DNA of 64,000 nt from Pirellulales bacterium (GTDB taxonomy: Bacteria; Planctomycetota; Planctomycetia; Pirellulales; JAEUIK01), in the NCBI GenBank assembly GCA_019745975.1, contig JAIESQ010000084.1, positions 1 to 64,000 of the forward strand, written 5' to 3'. The notes beneath the pieces are model-generated. The model was not told the DNA's origin, did not search any database, and worked only from the letters and a program-made list of their open reading frames with translations. The position numbers were made by a program, and so were the translations under genes. This document shows, piece by piece, positions 51,542 through 63,782 of this stretch (within the stretch, counting starts at the first letter, position 1; each line of letters begins with the position of its first letter).

Positions 51542-52279
51542 GTGAGTCGTAAGCATGTTGTCGCGTTGCGATTGTTTTCTCTTGCGCTTTTGCTCGCGAC
51601 CGCCTCATTTGCGCAGCGCACTTGGGGGGGCGTTTGTTGCAGTCGTTGTGGCTGTCAAGACAACTGCTGCAAGGTCTGCCGCCCCGTGCCCGACGTTAAA
51701 GAAGTCAAAGAAGTTTGCTGGGATGTCAAGTGCGAGGACTTCTGCGTTCCTGGCCCGAGCTGCTGCTGCGGCAAAGTCGACAAGCAGGACGAATGCGGCT
51801 GCTGGAGCTACAAGATTTGGAAGCCGAATTGCGGCCACGTTCGCACCCGCAAGACCCTCGTGAAGAAAGAAGTCACGCGCGAAGTGCCGACCACGAAGTG
51901 GGTCGTCGAGAACGTGTGTGCGCACTGCAAATCGGCGTGCGACGTGGAGCTGCCTGCTGACGGCGCGCCTCCGAAGTTGCCCGCGGAACAGGCTCCGGCC
52001 ACGTCGCCTGGCTCTCCCGCAATGCCTCCACCGGGCGGCCAGCCAGCTAGGCCGCAGGATCCTCCTCCGAGCAGCACGCCCGGCCCGGCACAGCCCGGCG
52101 CGGCGAGCGTGGCTTATCCACCAGCTCGCGTTGGTTTCGCCCAGCGTGCGGCGTATGCCCGTCCGCTAACGCCTGCTGCGCCCTGGCCAACAGCCCCGTC
52201 TGCGAATCGCCAGCCGCAGCCGACGGTCTATTCGCCGGGCGCGGCTGCGCAGCGGCCTCTGCCGGGCCTGGTAGATTGA
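51542..52279 (+). CDS. Secreted Cys-rich protein with Pro/Ala tail
   Basis: A 245-residue protein. Signal peptide ends near SFAQR; residues about 30-145 hold some 18 cysteines in clusters (GVCCSRCGCQDNCCKVCRP, CVPGPSCCCGK), plus KTLVKKEVTREVPTTKWVVE, a motif typical of planctomycete secreted Cys-rich proteins. The last 100 residues are Pro/Ala/Gln-rich. Disulfide or metal-binding roles are plausible. GTG at 51542 follows GGGGAA. Located just before the metal-efflux island. Confidence 0.82.
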   Translation: MSRKHVVALRLFSLALLLATASFAQRTWGGVCCSRCGCQDNCCKVCRPVPDVKEVKEVCWDVKCEDFCVPGPSCCCGKVDKQDECGCWSYKIWKPNCGHVRTRKTLVKKEVTREVPTTKWVVENVCAHCKSACDVELPADGAPPKLPAEQAPATSPGSPAMPPPGGQPARPQDPPPSSTPGPAQPGAASVAYPPARVGFAQRAAYARPLTPAAPWPTAPSANRQPQPTVYSPGAAAQRPLPGLVD

Positions 52280-52445: not shown

Positions 52446-54812
52446 CTAAAGCCTCGCCCGATTAAGCCGCAGCGCGTTCGCCACAACACTGATCGACGAG
52501 AGTGCCATCGCTGCTGCGGCAATGATTGGGGAGAGCAGAATGCCGAAGAAAGGGTACAGCAAGCCAGCCGCAATTGGCACGCCCGCGGCGTTGTATACAA
52601 AGGCGAAGAACAGGTTTTGGCGGATGTTCGCCATGGTTGCTTCGCTCAAGCGCCGCGCCCGCACGATTCCAATCAGGTCGCCCTTGAGGAGAGTCACGCC
52701 AGCACTCTCGATGGCGACATCAGTTCCCGAGCCCATGGCAATGCCCACGTCCGCCGCGGCCAGCGCCGGCGCATCGTTGACCCCGTCACCGGCCATCGCG
52801 ACGATCTTGCCCTCCTGTTTGAGTCGTTCCAGGACGGCGTTCTTCTGATCGGGTAGCACTTCGGCTTCCACATCCGCGATCCCTAGTCGGCGGGCCACGG
52901 CCTGTGCCGTGGTCCAGTTGTCACCGGTGAGCATGACCACAGCAATGCCATCCTTGCGCAACGAGTCGAGTGCAGCAGGCGTCGTCGTTCTGACCGGGTC
53001 GGCGATGGCAACCGCTCCTGCGAGGTGCTGGTCCACGGCGACAAAGATCGTGGTCGCGCCATCGCTGCGAAGCGCTTCGGCTGGTCCGCTTAGCGCCGCG
53101 ATCGAGATACCCAGTTCCTCAAGAAATCGGGCATTGCCCAGCGCTACCCGCTGGCCGCCAACGGTTCCGACTGCTCCCTTGCCTGTGGGTGAGTCAAAGT
53201 CGCGGACCTCTGGGATCAACAGCTTCCTCTCCTGCGCGGCTGCGACGATGGCGAGCGCCAGCGGATGCTCGGAGGCCCGCTCGACGCCGGCCGCCAGACG
53301 CAGCAGCTCACTTTCTTCAAGGCCCGCGGCGGCGATCACGCGCGTGACCGAGGGCTTTCCGATCGTGAGCGTGCCAGTTTTGTCGACGACGAGCGTATTG
53401 ACCTTTTCCAACCGCTCGAGTGCTTCGGCGTTTTTTATCAGCACGCCCAGCGTAGCGCCACGCCCAACGCCCACCATAATGGACATCGGCGTTGCCAGCC
53501 CCAGCGCACAGGGGCAGGCAATGATCAGAACCGCCACCGCGGCGATGAGCCCATGGGCCAATCGCGGTGCAGGTCCCCAAATGCTCCAGGCAATAAAAGC
53601 CAGGATGGCCACCAAAATCACTGCTGGCACAAACCAGCCCGCAACCTGGTCGGCCACTCGCTGGATGGGCGCGCGCGAGCGCTGCGCGTCGGCAACCATC
53701 TGCACGATGCGCGAGAGCATCGTGTCGTGGCCGACTTTCTCGGCGCGTATGACCAGCGCGCCGCTTTGATTGAGGGTACCCCCGATCACGCGATCTCCCA
53801 TCACCTTGGTGACCGGCATCGATTCACCGGTCACCATCGACTCGTCGAGCGCGGAGCGCCCCTCTTCGACGATCGCGTCGACTGGTACTTTTTCGCCCGG
53901 TCGCACACGGAGTCGGTCGCCAACCGCGATCAGTTCGATTGCGACCTCTTCATCTGAGCCGTCCTCGCGTAAGCGACGCGCTGTTTTGGGCGCCAGATCG
54001 AGCAACGCCTTGATCGCTCCGGATGTGCGCTCGCGCGCCCGCAGCTCAAGAACCTGGCCGAGCAATACCAGCACGGTGATGACGGCGGCCGCCTCGAAAT
54101 AGACCGCAACCGAGCCATCCATGCTCCGGAATGCTGTCGGAAACACCGACGGTGCGAGAGTCGCGACGACGCTGTAGGTCCAAGCGACGCCCGTTCCCAT
54201 GGCGATCAGCGTGAACATGTTGAGACGACGGGTGCGGAGCGATGTCCAACCCCGAGCAAAAAACGGCCAGCCCGCCCAGAGCACGACCGGAGTAGCCAGC
54301 GCGAGCTGGATCCAATTCGAGAGCTGCGGTGCAATCAGCCGATGAACGGCCGGGATCAGATGGCCACCCATTTCAAGCAGAAAGACCGGGGCTGCAAGTA
54401 CGAGACCGATCCAGAAGCGGCGTGTCATGTCGATCAGCTCGGCACTTGGACCCGCGCCCGCGCTGGCCGTCACTGGCTCCAGCGCCATTCCGCAAATCGG
54501 ACACGCACCAGGATGGTCCTGGCGGACCTGGGGGTGCATCGGGCAAGTCCAGATCGTCGCAGCTTCGGCTTCGATTGGCGTCGCTGACTGTGTTGTCACG
54601 AAACGAGCGGGGTCGGCGATGAATTTCGACCGGCAACCGGCGCTGCAGAAATAGAATTCATGGCCATTATGCACGGCATGCTGCTTCGTCTTGGCCGGAT
54701 CGACAGCCATACCGCAAACTGGATCCGTCGCGTCGCGCCGTTTGCCGTCGTCGATTGCGTGGGTGGCGTGGATCGTATCGCCGGTGTACACCGTGTCTCG
54801 TGAGTTCGTCAC
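52446..54812 (-). CDS. copA: Heavy-metal P1B-type ATPase with YHS domain (CopA-like)
   Basis: A 788-residue efflux ATPase. It opens with a YHS domain ([26 protein letters not shown]), then a heavy-metal-binding domain ([20 protein letters not shown]), followed by membrane helices, the actuator motif TGES, CPC ion site ([12 protein letters not shown], about residue 434), phosphorylation site DKTGTLT (about 480) and [10 protein letters not shown] hinge. The CPC motif suggests copper/silver specificity. Start GTG at 54812 has GGAGG six bases upstream. It is co-directional with the RND genes and 82 bases from cusA. Confidence 0.95.
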
Positions 54813-54894
54813 AGCGAGCCTCCTTATCAACCCAACCAGGCAAGTGCTCGATATCTCGTCATCGCGATCACATCGCATCGCGAATGAGCGGATA

Positions 54895-57800
54895 TCACGA
54901 TCCAATCGACACTTGTGGACGAAGCGGATGTTCGTCCGGGATCCGCTTGAGTTTGAGCCAACGGGCCCGTCGTACCCAATAGAACCGCACGGGCAAGAAC
55001 AAGTCGACAACCTCATCTGATATCAACAGACCACCCAGCACGGGCAGAGCCATTGGTGCCAGGATCTCGCCGCCGACTCCCTTGGCAAACACCATTGGGA
55101 AGATCGCGATAATGGCGACTCCCTCGGTGAGGAGCTTCGGTCGCAGGCGATGCACGGCCCCTTCGATCACGGCTTGGCGCAGCTCTTCGAGCGACTTGAT
55201 GTTCTCCAGGCCACCTCGTTTGTCGATCGCTTCGCGCAGGTAGACGAGCATGATGATGCCTGTTTCGGTCGCCATGCCGAAGCAGGCGATGAAGCCGACC
55301 CACACGGCGACGCTGAAATCCATCGGCGGCGCATTCCAGTCCCAAGCCATGATCTTGGGAAACAAGAACATGAAGAAGGCACCACCAGCCAGGGCCTCGG
55401 GCACGGCGAGCATCATCAATCCCGCGTCGGCCAGGTCGTTGTATGTCAGATAGAGGATAATGAAGATCAGCACGACCACGGTGGGAAAAACGATCCGCAG
55501 TGTCTTGGCAGCTCGGATCTGATGCTCGAACTCGCCGCTCCACTCGAGATGCACCCCCTCGGGCAATCGCACCTTTTGGACGACGGCGCGCTGTGCCTCG
55601 TCGACGAAGCCGACCATATCGCGGCCTCGAACATTGAGGGTCACGTAATTCAGCAGCCGGCCGTTTTCGCTCTTGATCATGGCGGGCCCTTCGACGATTT
55701 TGATGTCCGCCACGGCGCTGAGGGGAATCAGCGACTTGCCGCGGCCCGCATGTAGTGGCCTGGCAATGTGCGCGGTATCGGTCGACGCGACTTGCGTCGA
55801 ATCGGCGGACATTCCGGGTAGGGCGGGCATGCTGGGTGTTGCCATCCCACCACCGGCGCTAACCAGCAGCCGCCGGATGCTGTCCTCGTCGTCGCGCTGC
55901 GCACGTGCGTAACGGATTCGCACGGGTATCCGGTCACGTTTTTCGACCGTGAACGTGACCGCGCGACCTCCCAGGGCGACTTCGATTTCGTTTTGAATGT
56001 CTTCGACGGAGATTCCGTAGCGCGCGGCACGCTCCCGATCGATGTCGATCTGCAAGTACCCTTTGCCCATGATGGGGGCGGCGATTGCATCGCGGGCGCC
56101 GGGAATCGGTTTCAAAACCGACTCGACTTCTTTGCAGACGCGATCGATCGTGTTGAGATCGGGGCCGAACACCTTGACGCCAATATCCGTGCGCACGCCG
56201 GTCGAGAGCATCTCGATGCGGTTGATGATCGGCTGCGTAAAAATATTACTCCAGCCGGGCACCTGCAGGACGCGCCCCATTTCGTCGTCCACGAGATCGC
56301 CTTTGGGGCCAGTCTGGCGCGGCCAGAAAAATACCTGCTGCTTGAAGCCGGCTTCCAATTCAGAACGCAGGCCGGCAAAGGGCTGGTAAGCCCCGGTTTC
56401 GACCGTCTCGTTGAGTTGATCGCGGATCGAAGCCTGGGCGAATCGCCGGGTTGTGTCGCCTTGCTTCGCCTGCTGTGTCAGTTGCTGCGCTTCGGCGGCC
56501 TTGGCTGTTTCCTGCAAGGCATACCAGGTGTAGGCCTCGACGCCGCGATCGAACAGTTCCCAGTTGATCTGCTCAACGGCCGCCAGCCAGAGCTCGTCTC
56601 GATGCCGCTCGAGTGTATTCAACAGTTCGCTGGCTAGAGTCGGCCGCTGGCCGCCCAGTGCTTCCCGGATCGCAGCTGACAATCTGGAGAAGGATGAGCC
56701 ATGCAGCTCCAGTGCTTCGACTTCGTTGGTGATAATGCCCTGGTCCTTCAAGGAGCGAACGACCCATTGGCTAAGTTGGGCGAGATCCTCGAGTGCCGGG
56801 TTGCGCGACAACCAATAGCCGTAGTCGGGCGCAAACTTGGTCGTCAACTCTTCGACAAGCGTTGCGGTGGTGGTTTGTGGCGGCAACGTGAGCCGCTCGG
56901 CGGCGACCGCGTTGTCGAGGGTCTTTTGAATCGCAAATCGCGTCAGCTCGCGCTCCAAGCCTCGCTCAGTCTCGCGAAACCGCGAGAGTGCCAGCTCGCG
57001 CAGCGTCTCATCGAAACGTTCCAAGGCCTTCTGCGTGGTGTCGTTGACCAATGTCTGCCGATCGTCTCCTGAAGTCGCGGCGACATAACTTTCGCGTTCG
57101 AGCGCCACGAGTACGGCTTCCGTTTGACGGGCCGCGTCGGCGTACTTGAGGACTCGCTTCGGCCACTGCGCTTTCGGCCGAAAGTTCACAAACGTCTCGA
57201 CCATGTCGAGTGGGGCCGGGTCGGTCGGAGTATCAGCCCGACCTGACTTGCCGACGACCGATTCGACCTCGGGGAAACCGCGCAGTAGCGCATCGCGGGC
57301 CTTCAGATCGTCGGTCGCTTGCGTGACGCTCGCCCGAGGCACTGTGACTGGCATATCGAGCGTGGTTCCCTCATCCAGGGCCGGCATGAAGGCGACGCCG
57401 ATCTTCGTGAAGTGAAACGACCAGAGCCCGATTAGTAGCAGCGTTGCGAACGACAATAGCTGCCAGTGAAAGCCGCGGGTAAAGATCACCGTCAAAGCAG
57501 TGACGACAAAGAACACGATCAAGAATGTCGTCTTCCACGCAGTCTCGCTGGCGCCTTGCCCCATGACGGCCTGCAGTGGGAACATGCCGGCGGCCATGAC
57601 CAACAGCACGGCGAACATCCACATCACCAGGTTGCGCCGGGGCAGCGCCCAGGTCAGAAGCGGCTTGTAGATGTTGATGAAGCTGCGGACGATCGGGTTA
57701 TCTTCTTCGCTGCGGAGGCGCCCGCGGATGAAGGTTGGAATGAGCGCCGGCACCACCGTGATCGAGATCAAGGCCACGCCGATCATGGCGAAGCTCTTGG

Positions 57801-59307
57801 TGAATGCCAGCGGATGGAAGTACTTGCCTTCGCGGCCGCTGAGCATGAAGACCGGCACGAACGACAGCAGCATGATCAGCACGGAGAAGAAAATCGGCCG
57901 GCCGACGGTGCGGCACGGTGCGATGACCAGTTCTCGGATGTCGCCGGTCACCTTGCGGTCGCCGAAATGAGTTTTCAGCTCGTGCGTGGCGTTTTCGGTC
58001 ATCACAATCGCCTGATCGACCAAGATGCCGATGGAAATGGTAATGCCGGCCAGCGACATGATGTTGGCCTGAATGTCGATGATGCCCGTCTCGCGCAGAA
58101 CCCACATCAAGAGGAACGAGAAAAGGACTGCAAGTGGTAGCGTCACGCAAATCACGAACACGCTGCGGAAGTGGAACAGGATTACGAGGACAGCCAACGA
58201 AGCGATGACCATCTCATGCCACATCACTTCGGTAAGCGTGTGAATCGCGCCGTGGATCAGGCGCGTACGGTCGTAGGCGGCGACGATATGCACACCCCGA
58301 GGAAGTCCCGGTTGCAGTTCCTGGATCTTGGCTTTGACTGCCTCGGTCACGGTGAGCGGATTCTGTCCATGGCGCATGAGCACGGCGCCGCCGACGACCT
58401 CGTTGCCATCCTTTTCGTAGACGCTTCGCCGGAACTGGACGCCGAGCTGAACACTGGCAACATTGCGCACATAAATTGGCGTGCCGTTGACTTCCTTGAT
58501 GACCGTTTTCTCGATATCCCCTTTGTCCTTGATCCAGCCCACGCCACGCACGATGTATTCGGCATTGTTCTTCTGGATAACGCCGCCGCCGGCCGGCATA
58601 TTGCTGCTGCCCACGGCTGAGTACAGATCGCCAAGGGTCAGCCCATACGCCCGCAGGTCTTCAGGGCGCACATCGATCTGATATTCAAGAGGCATGCCGC
58701 CGACAATGGCCACGTCGGAGACGCCGGCCGCCGCATTGATCTGCGGTGCGATATAGAACTTGTTGAGCGCCCACAGCCGAGACAGCTCCATTGGCTGGCT
58801 CGCGCTAGTCTCAACCGTGTACCAGAAGATCTGCCCCAGGGCAGTCGCATCGGGCGCCAGGTACGGCACCACGCCCGCGGGGAGGAAGGTGCTCGCCTGT
58901 GCCAATTTCTCGGTGACGCGCTGTCGGGCGAAGTAGAAGTCGATGTCGTCATTGAAGATGATCGTGATCATCGAGAAATTGAATTCCGATGACGACCGCA
59001 CGGCCTTGACGCCGGCCAGACCTTGCAGCTTACGCGACAACGGGTACGTGACCTGATCCTCGATCTCGCGCGGGCTGCGCCCCATCCAGTCGGTGAAGAC
59101 AATGACCTGGTTCTCGGAAAGATCGGGTGTCGCATCAACTGGCGTGTTCAGCACGGCATAAATGCCTGCCACGGTCAGAGCGGCCGCTAGTATCAAGACC
59201 AGAAAGCGGTTGCGAATCGAATACTCGATGATCCGCTCAATCAACCCGTGGGGCGTTGGCGGCTTGTCGTGGGCTGGCGTGGTCGGGGACAACTTGACGT
59301 CGATCAT
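54895..59307 (-). CDS. cusA: CusA-type heavy-metal RND efflux pump with large insertion
   Basis: A 1470-residue inner-membrane proton/metal antiporter, where E. coli CusA has about 1050. Standard features are [20 protein letters not shown] near the N-terminus, [20 protein letters not shown] (conserved Asp of the proton relay), [20 protein letters not shown] and the C-terminal helix bundle. Two departures are visible: an extra pair of probable membrane helices around residues 640-665 ([15 protein letters not shown] and [15 protein letters not shown]) before [13 protein letters not shown], and an insertion at about 720-1000 within the second periplasmic porter region, rich in predicted helix. 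The start ATG overlaps the cusB stop (ATGA). Confidence 0.94.
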
Positions 59308-61448
59308 GGAGTTGTCTCCGCGGTGGGAGCTTGTGCTTTGCGCAATCGATCGACCGTGTCCAGTGTTCGTTTGGGATCGTCCGTTGCTCGTTGAGTGCAA
59401 CCTTCGCAGCAGACAAAGACGTCTCGGCCCTGAATTTGCAGCTTGAGCGGAGCGCCCATTGACCCGAGGCGGCTAGTGGGAATAACGGCGCAATTTCGCT
59501 GCTGACGTGCTAACTGCTGGTCTTCGGCGGAGAGCTCTGCCAAAGCGGCCGCGATTTCGGCTTCTTCGGAATCGGCTTTCGCGATGTCAGTGCCGCCATC
59601 GGCTTCGCCAGTGGTTGCCGAAGGTGCTACTTCGGTAGCGGGCGCCGCACGTCGCTTTAATTGCGCGAGCGTCGCTTTGGAGTTCTTAAGCGCCTGCGCC
59701 TTACAACCGGCGCAGCACAGGAAGACGGGCTCGCCGTCGATCGTCAACTTGACCGGCACTCCCATCGATCCCAACAAGTTATTGGTGAGCACCGGACAGT
59801 AGCGCTGCGCCTCGGCGAGCAGGCGGTCGGATTCGGGCAGCTTGGCCAGTTCCGCCTTGACCATGGCATCCGGATCTTCGGGTGTGGACGGACGCACGGT
59901 GGTTGCGGCTGTCGAGCTTTTAGTACCACTCCCTCCGAAGTAGATCGAGCCGGCGGCTGGATTGAGCCGGGTTTCCGCATCCACGAGAAACGAGCCCGAG
60001 GTGACAATCTCCGCACCAAGAGCGAGCCCATGCAGGACAGGATAGAAAACAACGTCTCCAGGGCCACTCATCTTCGGGCCCAAGACGACCTTTACACCTT
60101 CGAAAACGCCAGGACTCGCCTGGCGATAAACGATCGTCTGACTGCCAGTATCGATCACAGCGCTCTCGGGGACTGCCAGCACGTGATCGTTTCTCACGAG
60201 CGGATTAGCTTCGGATTGATCGCGTTGAGCAATCTTGAGAGCTTCGACGTCTTGCGGGGGCACTCGCAAGGTGACGGTGGCTGTCATGCCGGGCCGTAGC
60301 TTGTGACCCGGATTAGCGACTTCGAATCGCACGGCGACGGTGCGCGTGTCTTGATCGACGTGCGGGTAGATGAAGGTCAGCTTGCCTTCGAATTCCTCTC
60401 CTGGCAGGCCGCGGGTGGTGGCAATCACCGGGATGTCCGATTCACTACCCTCGGTGGCATGCCTGTGTGACTGCTCCAGCGGCAGGAAGGCCAAATCGTC
60501 TTCGTAGATCTGAGCAAGAATCCAGACGCTCGACAGATCGGCGATTTCGTAGAGCGCTTGTCCTTCCTCGACATATTGACCCTCGCGCACTTTTTTCTTG
60601 ATCACGTGCCCCGTGATGGGAGAGTAGATAGACACGTGAGTGTCGGTCCTTCCATGAGCCAAGATCTCGTCGATCTGACGGGCGTCGACCCCCAGAAGCT
60701 CAAGTTTCGTGCGGGTGCTTTTCAGTAGCTCCTCGTTGCGATTGCGCTGGGAAATCAGCAGGCTTTGCACGGCACTGAGGAGCTCCGGGCTATAAATTGC
60801 CGCGAGTTTCTCGCCCGCGTCCACGAACTTTCCGGTTTCGCTGACGAACAACTCATCGATGCGGCCGGCCACGCGGGCCGATACCGTGCGCTCGCCCCGC
60901 TCATTGAATTCGATGTAACCGACGGCTTCGATTTCCTTGACGAGCGGTTGATAATCGACCTTCCAGGTGTTCGCGCCCGCCAGCACCACGCGATACGGCG
61001 AAAGCTGCACGCGATTGACGACACCCGCAGGCAGGGCTTCCGTGTGCGCGTCTCCCTTCTTGCGCTTCGACAGCGGCATGAAGCAGATCGGACATTTATC
61101 TTTCGGATTGTCGCGGATCACCGTCGGGTGCATCGGGCAGAAATACTCGATATCGCTGCTGGCGGCCCCCGCGGCGCCAGCCGGTCGCGTCCAGCGCTCG
61201 TAGTATTGCACAAGCCGATCCCACTGAGTGATCACCAGCCCAATCGCCACCAGTACGGCAATGAATCGCAAGCGAGCCAGCTTCACCAAGATCAGAAAAT
61301 CGAACCACCACCAAAACTTCCGCCAGCCTTTGAGGTCGGGTGGGGCGCGCAGTCCGCCTTCATCCATCTCGGGTGACAGGGTGGCATTTGTCGAGACGGG
61401 GCGGCGCTCGACGTCGTTGCATTCGTGAGCAGGCTTCTGGAAACTCAT
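59304..61448 (-). CDS. cusB: CusB-type RND adaptor with extra metal-binding modules
   Basis: A 714-residue periplasmic adaptor. A membrane segment near residues 48-68 precedes a heavy-metal-binding domain (YFCPMHPTVIRDNPKDKCPI, about 103); the membrane-fusion core follows (VEGQYVEEGQALYEIADLSS, PGMTATVTLRVP). C-terminal additions are two YHS-like modules with cysteine pairs, VFLCCAGC (about 590) and VFVCCEGC (about 690), linked by Ala/Glu-rich segments. Metal would therefore be handled at both ends of the adaptor. ATG at 61448 has GAGG eight bases upstream; the stop overlaps cusA. Confidence 0.93.
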   Translation of the reverse strand: MSFQKPAHECNDVERRPVSTNATLSPEMDEGGLRAPPDLKGWRKFWWWFDFLILVKLARLRFIAVLVAIGLVITQWDRLVQYYERWTRPAGAAGAASSDIEYFCPMHPTVIRDNPKDKCPICFMPLSKRKKGDAHTEALPAGVVNRVQLSPYRVVLAGANTWKVDYQPLVKEIEAVGYIEFNERGERTVSARVAGRIDELFVSETGKFVDAGEKLAAIYSPELLSAVQSLLISQRNRNEELLKSTRTKLELLGVDARQIDEILAHGRTDTHVSIYSPITGHVIKKKVREGQYVEEGQALYEIADLSSVWILAQIYEDDLAFLPLEQSHRHATEGSESDIPVIATTRGLPGEEFEGKLTFIYPHVDQDTRTVAVRFEVANPGHKLRPGMTATVTLRVPPQDVEALKIAQRDQSEANPLVRNDHVLAVPESAVIDTGSQTIVYRQASPGVFEGVKVVLGPKMSGPGDVVFYPVLHGLALGAEIVTSGSFLVDAETRLNPAAGSIYFGGSGTKSSTAATTVRPSTPEDPDAMVKAELAKLPESDRLLAEAQRYCPVLTNNLLGSMGVPVKLTIDGEPVFLCCAGCKAQALKNSKATLAQLKRRAAPATEVAPSATTGEADGGTDIAKADSEEAEIAAALAELSAEDQQLARQQRNCAVIPTSRLGSMGAPLKLQIQGRDVFVCCEGCTQRATDDPKRTLDTVDRLRKAQAPTAETTP

Positions 61449-61588: not shown

Positions 61589-62110
61589 TCAGGGAATCGT
61601 CCCCTCTAATCCGACATCCGCCAGTGCGGTCAAGAGCTGAGCCGTCGTCGCCTTGCCCTTGGTCGCGAATTGCACGGCGACCAATTTCTTGCTTTTTTGC
61701 ACTTGAACTTTCGCCACACCAGGCACGGCCATGAGAGCATCAGTTGCCTTTTTGGCGTTTGCTTTGTCCGTGAGTCCCGCGACTGAGACGAATAGCCAAC
61801 CGCTGTAATGCATGCTGCCGCCCATCATGTGAGGCGTACCTGCGATGGCCTGCGCGATCTGTTGGGCCGAAATGCTCGATTCATCTATTTCGACGCGGGC
61901 CGATTTCCTGCCATAGTCGACCTTGACCGATCGCACGCCCTTGACGCGTCTCAGCGACCTTTCGACGGTTGACGCGCACGGCGGGCAGTGCAGGCCACTG
62001 ATCAGAAACGTGGTGGCGACCGGCTCGGTTTCCTTCGCGCCGTCCGGCGCCGGTTCGGCCTGGGTCGCGCTCAACAAGCTTGCCGCGACGATTGCTAGTG
62101 GGGTGAGCAT
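61589..62110 (-). CDS. Secreted double HMA-domain protein (MerP-like)
   Basis: A 173-residue protein with a short signal peptide (MLTPLAIVAASLLSATQAEP). The first HMA domain (about 35-100) has GLHCPPCASTVERSL, a copper-type CxxC; the second (about 105-170) has the fold pattern (SVAGLTDKANAKKATDALMA) but no cysteines. One binding and one non-binding HMA domain in a single secreted chain suggest metal relay or sensing. GGAG seven bases before 62110 supports the start. It sits upstream of cusB on the same strand. Confidence 0.88.
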   Translation of the reverse strand: MLTPLAIVAASLLSATQAEPAPDGAKETEPVATTFLISGLHCPPCASTVERSLRRVKGVRSVKVDYGRKSARVEIDESSISAQQIAQAIAGTPHMMGGSMHYSGWLFVSVAGLTDKANAKKATDALMAVPGVAKVQVQKSKKLVAVQFATKGKATTAQLLTALADVGLEGTIP

Positions 62111-62265
62111 AACAAACTCCAATGCGATTGCTGTGGGTGCAGATCTTGTGAGACAAATTGCCAAATCAATCACGTGGAGGCGCCGCCGCCCCGCCCAGAC
62201 CGGATGGAGCAACGGCCAGGAGCGGGACAGCCGGCGACTCCGCCACTGGAGACGCAAGAACGTGA

Positions 62266-62631
62266 CTATTGCCCACGGACCTTGCGACCAGCGTCAAAGG
62301 CCGAGAATCCGCGCGAACCGCGCATCATCGACGACGAGCCGTAGGAACGGTACGACGGCGAATACGAATAGCTGCGGTACGACCTCCGCACCGGCGCGCC
62401 CGCGGTACGCGGAGTTGCCGGACTCGCGGCGACCCGCGGTGTCCCTGGCGCTGGGCGCGCGGCGTAGCCGGCCGCGCCCGAGGCCTTCGACGTGCCAGCC
62501 ATCTCCATGCCTGACATGGCCGAGCAACTCGCACCACTACCGCAACCGCCACCACCGCACGCTCGCGCCGCTGATGTGTGGAACAAACCGACAGACAAAG
62601 CCACGACGGCGATGCTGAAAACCTTCAACAT
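62266..62631 (-). CDS. Small secreted protein, Cys/Met then Arg/Tyr/Ser-rich
   Basis: A 121-residue protein with a signal peptide ending at ARACG. The first mature residues contain CGGGGCGSGASCSAMSGMEM, a possible metal-binding cluster of Cys and Met; the rest is low-complexity Arg/Ser/Tyr/Pro (YRSYSYSPSYRSYGSSSMM). AGGAG nine bases before 62631 supports the start. Context suggests a periplasmic metal-handling accessory; no family recognised. Confidence 0.75.
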   Translation of the reverse strand: MLKVFSIAVVALSVGLFHTSAARACGGGGCGSGASCSAMSGMEMAGTSKASGAAGYAARPAPGTPRVAASPATPRTAGAPVRRSYRSYSYSPSYRSYGSSSMMRGSRGFSAFDAGRKVRGQ

Positions 62632-62840
62632 GATGTTTCTCCTGACTGGCGACGGGCGCAAGCGAGCAGTTGCTGCTCACGAGGTCACGTCGCTGCGGTT
62701 ACGGCGACTTTCGCTGCCGCGGAGCGGCCTTCAACTCGAAAGTTCGCCTTCAAAACGCTGCCTGGTCACGCCAAATCTGCGGAAATCAAGCAAGGTGCAA
62801 TTGCCGCCATGGCGCAGGGCAATGACGAAAACTGCAGGGT

Positions 62841-62889: not shown

Positions 62890-63411
62890 TCAGATCAACA
62901 GACAGCGGAACACGACGACGAGATCGGCATCGGGACTACAGTGGAGATGCCCGAGGTCGACAATCGAATCGGCGTGTCTGGGTAGCGGTTCGTCGGCCGA
63001 CTCGAGCGCCACACCACTAAAGACCGTGGCCAGCTCTGGCACTTGTACCGAGGTGACGACGACGCTCGGGTCGGCGGCCACGGCGACGCGGCAGGACGAG
63101 CCCTCATGTCGGTCAACGCCAGACGACACACAACAGGCATGCTCTGCCGTACGAGTCACACTCGGTCGAGCATGACTCTTGGTCGTTGCCGATTGTCGGC
63201 TGGCCGAACAGCAACCTCCGCAGCAGCAACACTTGCCGGTTGACGGAGCGCCTGAGATCGCCTTCGCTTGGCAGCAGGGACAATCGCACGTGATCGGTCG
63301 TTCGCTCGCGCCGCATTGGCAGCGCGGAGTCGGCACGCCGCAGAGAACCGCCAAGGGCAACATTGCCCACACGACGGTGCACTTCAGGTATTTACTGTTC
63401 TGCGGTCGCAT
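62890..63411 (-). CDS. Secreted Cys-rich protein
   Basis: A 173-residue protein with an N-terminal hydrophobic segment (CTVVWAMLPLAVLCGVP) and several dense Cys clusters (CDCPCCQAK, KCCCCGGCCSA). Its C-terminus, DADLVVVFRCLLI, resembles endings of Cys-rich proteins I associate with planctomycete RND clusters. A metal-sequestering role is an inference from context. ATG at 63411 is used; the open frame continues to a TTG at 63453 and neither has a clear ribosome site. Confidence 0.7.
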   Translation of the reverse strand: MRPQNSKYLKCTVVWAMLPLAVLCGVPTPRCQCGASERPITCDCPCCQAKAISGAPSTGKCCCCGGCCSASRQSATTKSHARPSVTRTAEHACCVSSGVDRHEGSSCRVAVAADPSVVVTSVQVPELATVFSGVALESADEPLPRHADSIVDLGHLHCSPDADLVVVFRCLLI

Positions 63412-63782
63412 CGGAATCGATCGAATGGGCGCAAGAACTTCAAGGCTACCCAAACTATCCGCTTAGCCAAGTCGTTCGTCAATATCGAATGAAGGCAGCG
63501 ATTGCTATCGGCAACGGCAAGTGGATGACGTGAGTTCATCTTGACTGATTCGCGGCATCTCCCGAGATCGCAACAAGTTGCAGCCGTCCGTTCCGACAGT
63601 TTGCGGCCGATTGAGGGGATTTGTCGATCGGTGGGGAATTGCGGTTCGTAGCACGATTTCTGACCAACGACATTTGTTCTGACCGATGCCAACGATGCAA
63701 GTGCCGGGTGCCAGAGGCCCGGCACTTCTTACGCTAACCCGCCAGCCCGCGCAACAGCCGAAAGACATCGCACGGAGGCGTC
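63412..63782. other. Divergent intergenic region with hairpin
   Basis: 371 bases between divergent genes at the right edge. It contains the hairpin aagtgccggg / cccggcactt (63699-63708 with 63718-63727, 9-base loop) about 55 bases before the start of the plus-strand gene. No coding sequence recognised. The region probably includes the promoters of both transcription directions. Confidence 0.5.

Follow-up and report, generated by a model that had tools for sequence, protein, structure and literature searches.

The HME-RND (CusA/CzcA family) pump encoded at 54895..59307 on the minus strand of the window, the stretch of 64,000 nucleotides analysed here, carries a predicted all-helical domain of about 285 residues inserted into its porter domain PC1, between beta3 and alpha2. 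The insert was gained once, in ancestral Planctomycetota, and is common to pumps across the phylum. It marks an unnamed subfamily of CusA/CzcA pumps, which the curated models now available recognise only at the general CusA/CzcA level. A domain of this size, gained once and retained at an unlisted position near the substrate cleft, shows that PC1, too, is open to expansion. Some sister pumps are free of the insert, and together with the insert pumps they provide a system for testing metal loading into HME pumps. We suggest tentatively that the domain is a docking scaffold for a periplasmic copper donor.

The pump and its copper site

The pump, P0001, is specified by one continuous open reading frame that occupies exactly this interval, starts with ATG and encodes 1470 residues, against 1047 in E. 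coli CusA. With NCBIfam TIGR00914 it reaches 915.6 bits, above the curated cut-off of 701.45; its Pfam match is ACR_tran, and its closest solved relatives are CusA entries. The C-terminal half of P0001 was compared with CusA (PDB 3k07, 3ne5) and gave a VIA Z of 23-24 and an rmsd of about 6, with ~490 residues aligned at ~35% identity. The two proteins share the family, the fold of the C-terminal half, the Cu(I) site and the proton relay. CusA differs from P0001 in having no PC1 insert, a single TM7, no third loop and four complete methionine pairs. An assembly artefact, an intein or a frameshift was ruled out by more than 60 loci, which show the same architecture in open frames.

The CusA-type (HME4) periplasmic site of three methionines and E625 was found complete in P0001. 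M652 (57352..57354), M702 (57202..57204), E704 (57196..57198) and M1033 (56209..56211), all on the minus strand, correspond to CusA M573, M623, E625 and M672, the last located on the horizontal helix, and each of the four is present in 70/70 insert pumps. The proton relay is also in place, with D431, E1348, K1391 and T1394 of P0001 matching CusA D405, E939, K984 and T987; D405, K984 and T987 are conserved in all 70 insert pumps and E939 in 65 of them. By family and conserved residues, P0001 is the putative subunit of a CusA-type exporter that is driven by protons and expels Cu(I)/Ag(I), an HME-RND protein with a CusA-type cleft site that is not classed here as a CusA orthologue. Since the copper site is conserved in insert-free relatives as well, it points to copper or silver and is silent on the insert.

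None of the methionine pairs of CusA (M410-M501, M403-M486, M391-M1009 and M271-M755) is complete in P0001, which has, in the same order, M436-I523, L429-M508, M417-L1416 and F292-A1116. Three pairs keep one methionine each, and M271-M755 is lost. The absence of a complete pair fits periplasmic rather than cytosolic loading, suggesting that P0001 would receive Cu(I)/Ag(I) from the periplasm.

The inserted domain and its distribution

By alignment and AlphaFold2, the inserted domain spans P0001 719-1004 (56296..57153, minus strand). It is directly followed by PC1 helix alpha2 (P0001 1004-1013; 56269..56298, minus strand), on which R1012 corresponds to CusA N651. In the alignment with E. coli CusA the insertion point falls between T641 and M642 of the latter. 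P0001 has 287 residues (717-1003) where CusA has 6, a gain of ~281, and 285 residues separate [10 protein letters not shown] (712-721) from DDEMG (1007). An earlier, sequence-only reading had described nearly 300 helical residues in place of about 20 in CusA. Its estimate of the insert was sound and AlphaFold2 predicts the segment to be all-helical, but the CusA figure was too high, the true one being under ten, so that the net gain is larger than proposed.

An AlphaFold2 model of the half-pump (P0001 residues 545-1470, 67 sequences) had a mean pLDDT of 86.7 and a pTM of 0.78, with values mostly between 88 and 98 in the insert. In this model the elements of PC1 follow the order beta1, alpha1, beta2, beta3, insert, alpha2, which, together with the alignment, agrees with the periplasmic porter location first assigned to the insert. 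Folded alone, the insert gave a pLDDT of 96.4 and a pTM of 0.87 and formed about nine helices, the two longest of 50 and 56 residues. The sequence-only reading had spoken of a new subdomain, and the insert, which folds both in the half-pump and alone, is indeed predicted with high confidence to be an autonomous all-helical domain of ~285 residues. D766 is invariant and R770, E917 and L918 are near-invariant, a pattern that suggests a domain and not a random linker; with the confident fold, the insert is neither disordered nor devoid of conserved residues. The insert has no conserved Met, Cys or His and for this reason probably does not serve as a metal site; metal binding was rejected as the main idea for its role.

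Searches of the insert against Pfam and PDB sequences gave no convincing match. When its fold was compared with the PDB, the best Foldseek E value was 0.2 and the best VIA Z was 6.6, within noise for helical models. The best VIA rows were GltPh and covered only part of the model, and neither comparison rose above noise. For a helical model, this lack of a match does not prove a new fold. A simple heptad coiled coil was not supported for the two long helices, since hydrophobicity averaged over the family has its maximum near 93 degrees per residue. The length of the insert ranges from 178 to 386 residues among the pumps, and its sequence diverges fast, with 35-49% identity where the pump core has 81-89%. 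Three loci (L154, L155 and L063) have a further insertion of ~55 residues inside the inserted domain, near P0001 870-880.

Expansion of the porter module by helical insertion has been described in other RND proteins. MmpL5, a cluster I MmpL, has a large periplasmic insertion of 196 residues, and its deletion showed that it is essential for efflux (PMC12501195); SecDF P1 and HAE-3 also have helical insertions (PMC8277102). The insertion points are different, however. In cluster I MmpL proteins the insert is an extended coiled-coil hairpin that separates beta2 from beta3 in the second porter domain (PMC8277102, PMC12501195), and those of SecDF P1 and HAE-3 lie at beta2-beta3, or at alpha2-beta4 in SecDF (PMC8277102). 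The half-pump model of P0001 does not show the cluster I arrangement; about nine helices enter instead between beta3 and alpha2 of PC1. A review described RND porter insertion points as limited and conserved, listing beta2-beta3 and, in SecDF, alpha2-beta4, and called PN1 and PC1 continuous folds (PMC8277102). The beta3-alpha2 site of PC1 is absent from this list.

In CusA, the N651-R705 distance was used as a measure of conformational change in the PC1/PC2 cleft (PMC8092243). The insert of P0001 ends ~10 residues before R1012, the counterpart of this cleft-opening marker. The proximity to metal entry supposed in the sequence-only reading is thus supported by the CusA alignment and PMC8092243, which place the insert beside the metal-entry cleft. 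Since porter helices are placed on the outer side (PMC8277102), the inserted domain is expected to point outward next to the cleft.

A search with one query sequence detected the insert in 112 of the 397 genomes sampled from the class, and a profile search found it in 24 of 392 genomes from the phylum, 3 of the 24 being marginal. It is present in 38 of 41 close relatives (L036-L076), the other three being cut before the insert position, and absent from distant relatives in other phyla (L077-L090). The insert was missing from all 240 genomes sampled in the phylum to which locus L085 belongs (genome G752, Lentisphaerae). In the phylum of locus L080 (genome G756, Saprospiraceae), one of 148 genomes gave a marginal match of 60 residues, in a frame of 471 aa, and plasmids gave no match. 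Everything sampled thus holds no credible copy outside Planctomycetota, and the suspicion that the insert might be confined to planctomycetes is upheld for these genomes and plasmids. On a trait tree built without the insert columns, the insert changes state 1 time and the extra TM helices 6 times. The insert is standard in a large subfamily, which speaks in part against the sequence-only reading; no paper or curated family describing this subfamily was found, nor was any paper on this insert. A second CusA-like pump, without the large insert, is encoded with its adaptor on the same contig, shortly beyond the right end of the window (L122:8861-12418).

Neighbouring genes and the role of the inserted domain

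The cognate CusB-like adaptor gene of a CusA-type system lies immediately upstream of the pump (59304..61448, minus strand), and its stop codon overlaps the pump ATG (ATGA). The adaptor has 714 residues, with an N-terminal HMBD, a barrel-sandwich domain and a Cys-rich C-terminal tail of two repeats (Pfam HlyD_D23, HlyD_3 and HMBD; sequence). Pfam also identified two further genes on the minus strand, running in the same direction as the pump: upstream, one for an HMA heavy-metal-associated domain protein (61589..62257), and downstream, one for a CopA-like P-type ATPase (52446..55016) that has YHS and HMBD domains. An outer-membrane factor (OEP) gene is present on the same contig just past the window end, on the opposite strand. 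Small Cys- or Ser/Tyr-rich ORFs, whose products are probably exported, occur near the copper genes at 62890-63453 and 62266-62661 (minus strand) and at 51542-52279 (plus strand); none of the three had a Pfam match.

Cys-rich modules of CusB-like adaptors are of several types, C-terminal or internal. Of 54 adaptors encoded next to insert pumps, at least 47 have a distal Cys-rich module, compared with 4 of 15 other adaptors; the first figure is a minimum, because the motif search misplaced the start in several visibly Cys-rich adaptors. Strict coupling of the insert to these modules was rejected: Cys-rich tails also occur in the adaptors of L138 and L139, the closest sisters that lack the insert, whereas the neighbouring adaptor of L125 is without one. 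The L138 and L139 adaptors suggest that the association may be one of clade, not a functional link. In a mirror-tree analysis by partial correlation, with the slow pump core taken into account, the distances of insert and adaptor correlated at 0.64, only modestly above the controls of 0.48 for fast TM columns and 0.51 for fast core columns; the signal of insert-adaptor coevolution is thus not specific. No paper was found in the literature on a SilB-like adaptor precedent.

The inserted domain probably serves as a scaffold for docking or gating and not as a metal site. Our best explanation, which as a whole falls somewhat short of an even chance, is that the helical domain, next to the lip of the PC1/PC2 cleft, would offer a docking scaffold for proteins on the outside of PC1 and position a periplasmic copper donor at the cleft. 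The donor would most likely be the cognate adaptor, through its Cys-rich metal module, or a nearby HMA protein. Cu(I) would be passed to the M-M-E-M site and then expelled as the cleft opens and closes in the standard way; a disordered, Met/His-enriched loop may help metal collection, and the extra TM pair would be a separate, labile addition. This docking role is suggested by an insert that is ordered in both models, gained once and free of conserved Met, Cys or His, and by its position just before alpha2 with the N651 equivalent, where porter helices face outward (PMC8277102). It is also consistent with the neighbouring adaptor with HMBD, HMA protein and CopA-like ATPase, with the lack of a complete Met pair, and with the greater frequency of distal Cys-rich modules beside insert pumps. 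The loose pairing with Cys-rich tails, the small margin of the mirror-tree correlation over its controls and the fast divergence of the insert argue against it. The insert may affect adaptor contact or metal entry, as the sequence-only reading had surmised. A more ambitious claim, that a new RND porter insertion point, evolved in planctomycetes, bears a helical fold without a solved relative and acts as a docking gate at which a Cys-rich copper donor at the cleft loads the pump directly from the periplasm, seems unlikely to hold in full.

Other roles can be proposed for the same domain. It may be a lid or strut on the PC1/PC2 cleft that limits ligand entry or the swing of PC2 and binds no partner, as its predicted helices are rigid and it is attached directly before alpha2, the bearer of the cleft-opening marker. 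The lineages with much shorter inserts of 178-186 residues (L071, L125 and L161) nevertheless keep the same copper site, and we consider a lid possible but somewhat unlikely. The domain may instead be an assembly bracket that widens the outer face of the pump and holds the trimer or adaptor ring together but takes no part in metal entry. Such a bracket would fit the absence of conserved metal ligands, the restriction of conservation mostly to the fold and to D766, R770, E917 and L918, and the fast sequence change. Among the CusA residues that we take to be adaptor contacts, D155, E584 and K594 are replaced in P0001 by R177, Q663 and A673, which favours a bracket, whereas R771, R777 and R669, presumably contacts as well, are kept; a bracket, like a lid, seems somewhat unlikely. 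That the insert is a tolerated and largely neutral decoration of a permissive surface loop would agree with its variable length and rapid divergence. With a single change on the sampled tree, no loss seen after the gain, an invariant Asp, near-invariant Arg, Glu and Leu and a confidently predicted fold, decoration is quite improbable.

Extra transmembrane helices and a third insertion

HME-RND pumps usually have 12 TM helices, a number that is not strictly defining; 14 are predicted in P0001. Three helices (P0001 558-575, 588-609 and 613-631; 57415..57636, minus strand), identified by hydrophobicity and AlphaFold2, replace the one (TM7) of CusA. P0001 531-633 comprises 103 residues against 46 in CusA, and the hydrophobic peaks lie at 560-578, 595-613 and 623-641. 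The three hydrophobic segments noticed in the sequence were therefore genuine. They had been presented together with the insert, but the different numbers of state changes on the tree separate the two, and the extra TM pair is an evolutionarily labile trait of its own. The count of 14 is a within-family variant, as the single helix is present in close relatives. Hydrophobic segments in the TM7 region number 3, 5 or 7 in most of these pumps. The helices were apparently added in pairs, preserving the topology (P0001 558-631; L065, L067, L069, L073 and L144).

Like P0001, the CusA-like pumps of Bacteroidetes and Lentisphaerae (L080-L090) and the L122 paralogue have extra hydrophobic segments between TM6 and PC1. 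Their extra helices precede the YxPxL amphipathic segment, whereas those of P0001 follow it, so the gains look independent. The PC1 loop of these pumps is only 19-85 residues long.

A third insertion, which the sequence-only reading had missed, is a disordered Gly/Ala/Ser/Pro loop at P0001 1156-1192 (55732..55842, minus strand), recognised by length, pLDDT and composition. P0001 has 45 residues (1149-1193) where CusA has 8, with AlphaFold2 pLDDT mostly below 60 in the loop. Across 69 pumps the loop is richer than flanking periplasmic sequence in Met (5.7% vs 2.3%) and His (2.9% vs 0.5%), and it is possibly a metal-collecting arm. Elsewhere in the porter, L039, L040, L042, L053, L059, L061 and L073 have 18-35 extra residues in the N-terminal half, near P0001 160-180.
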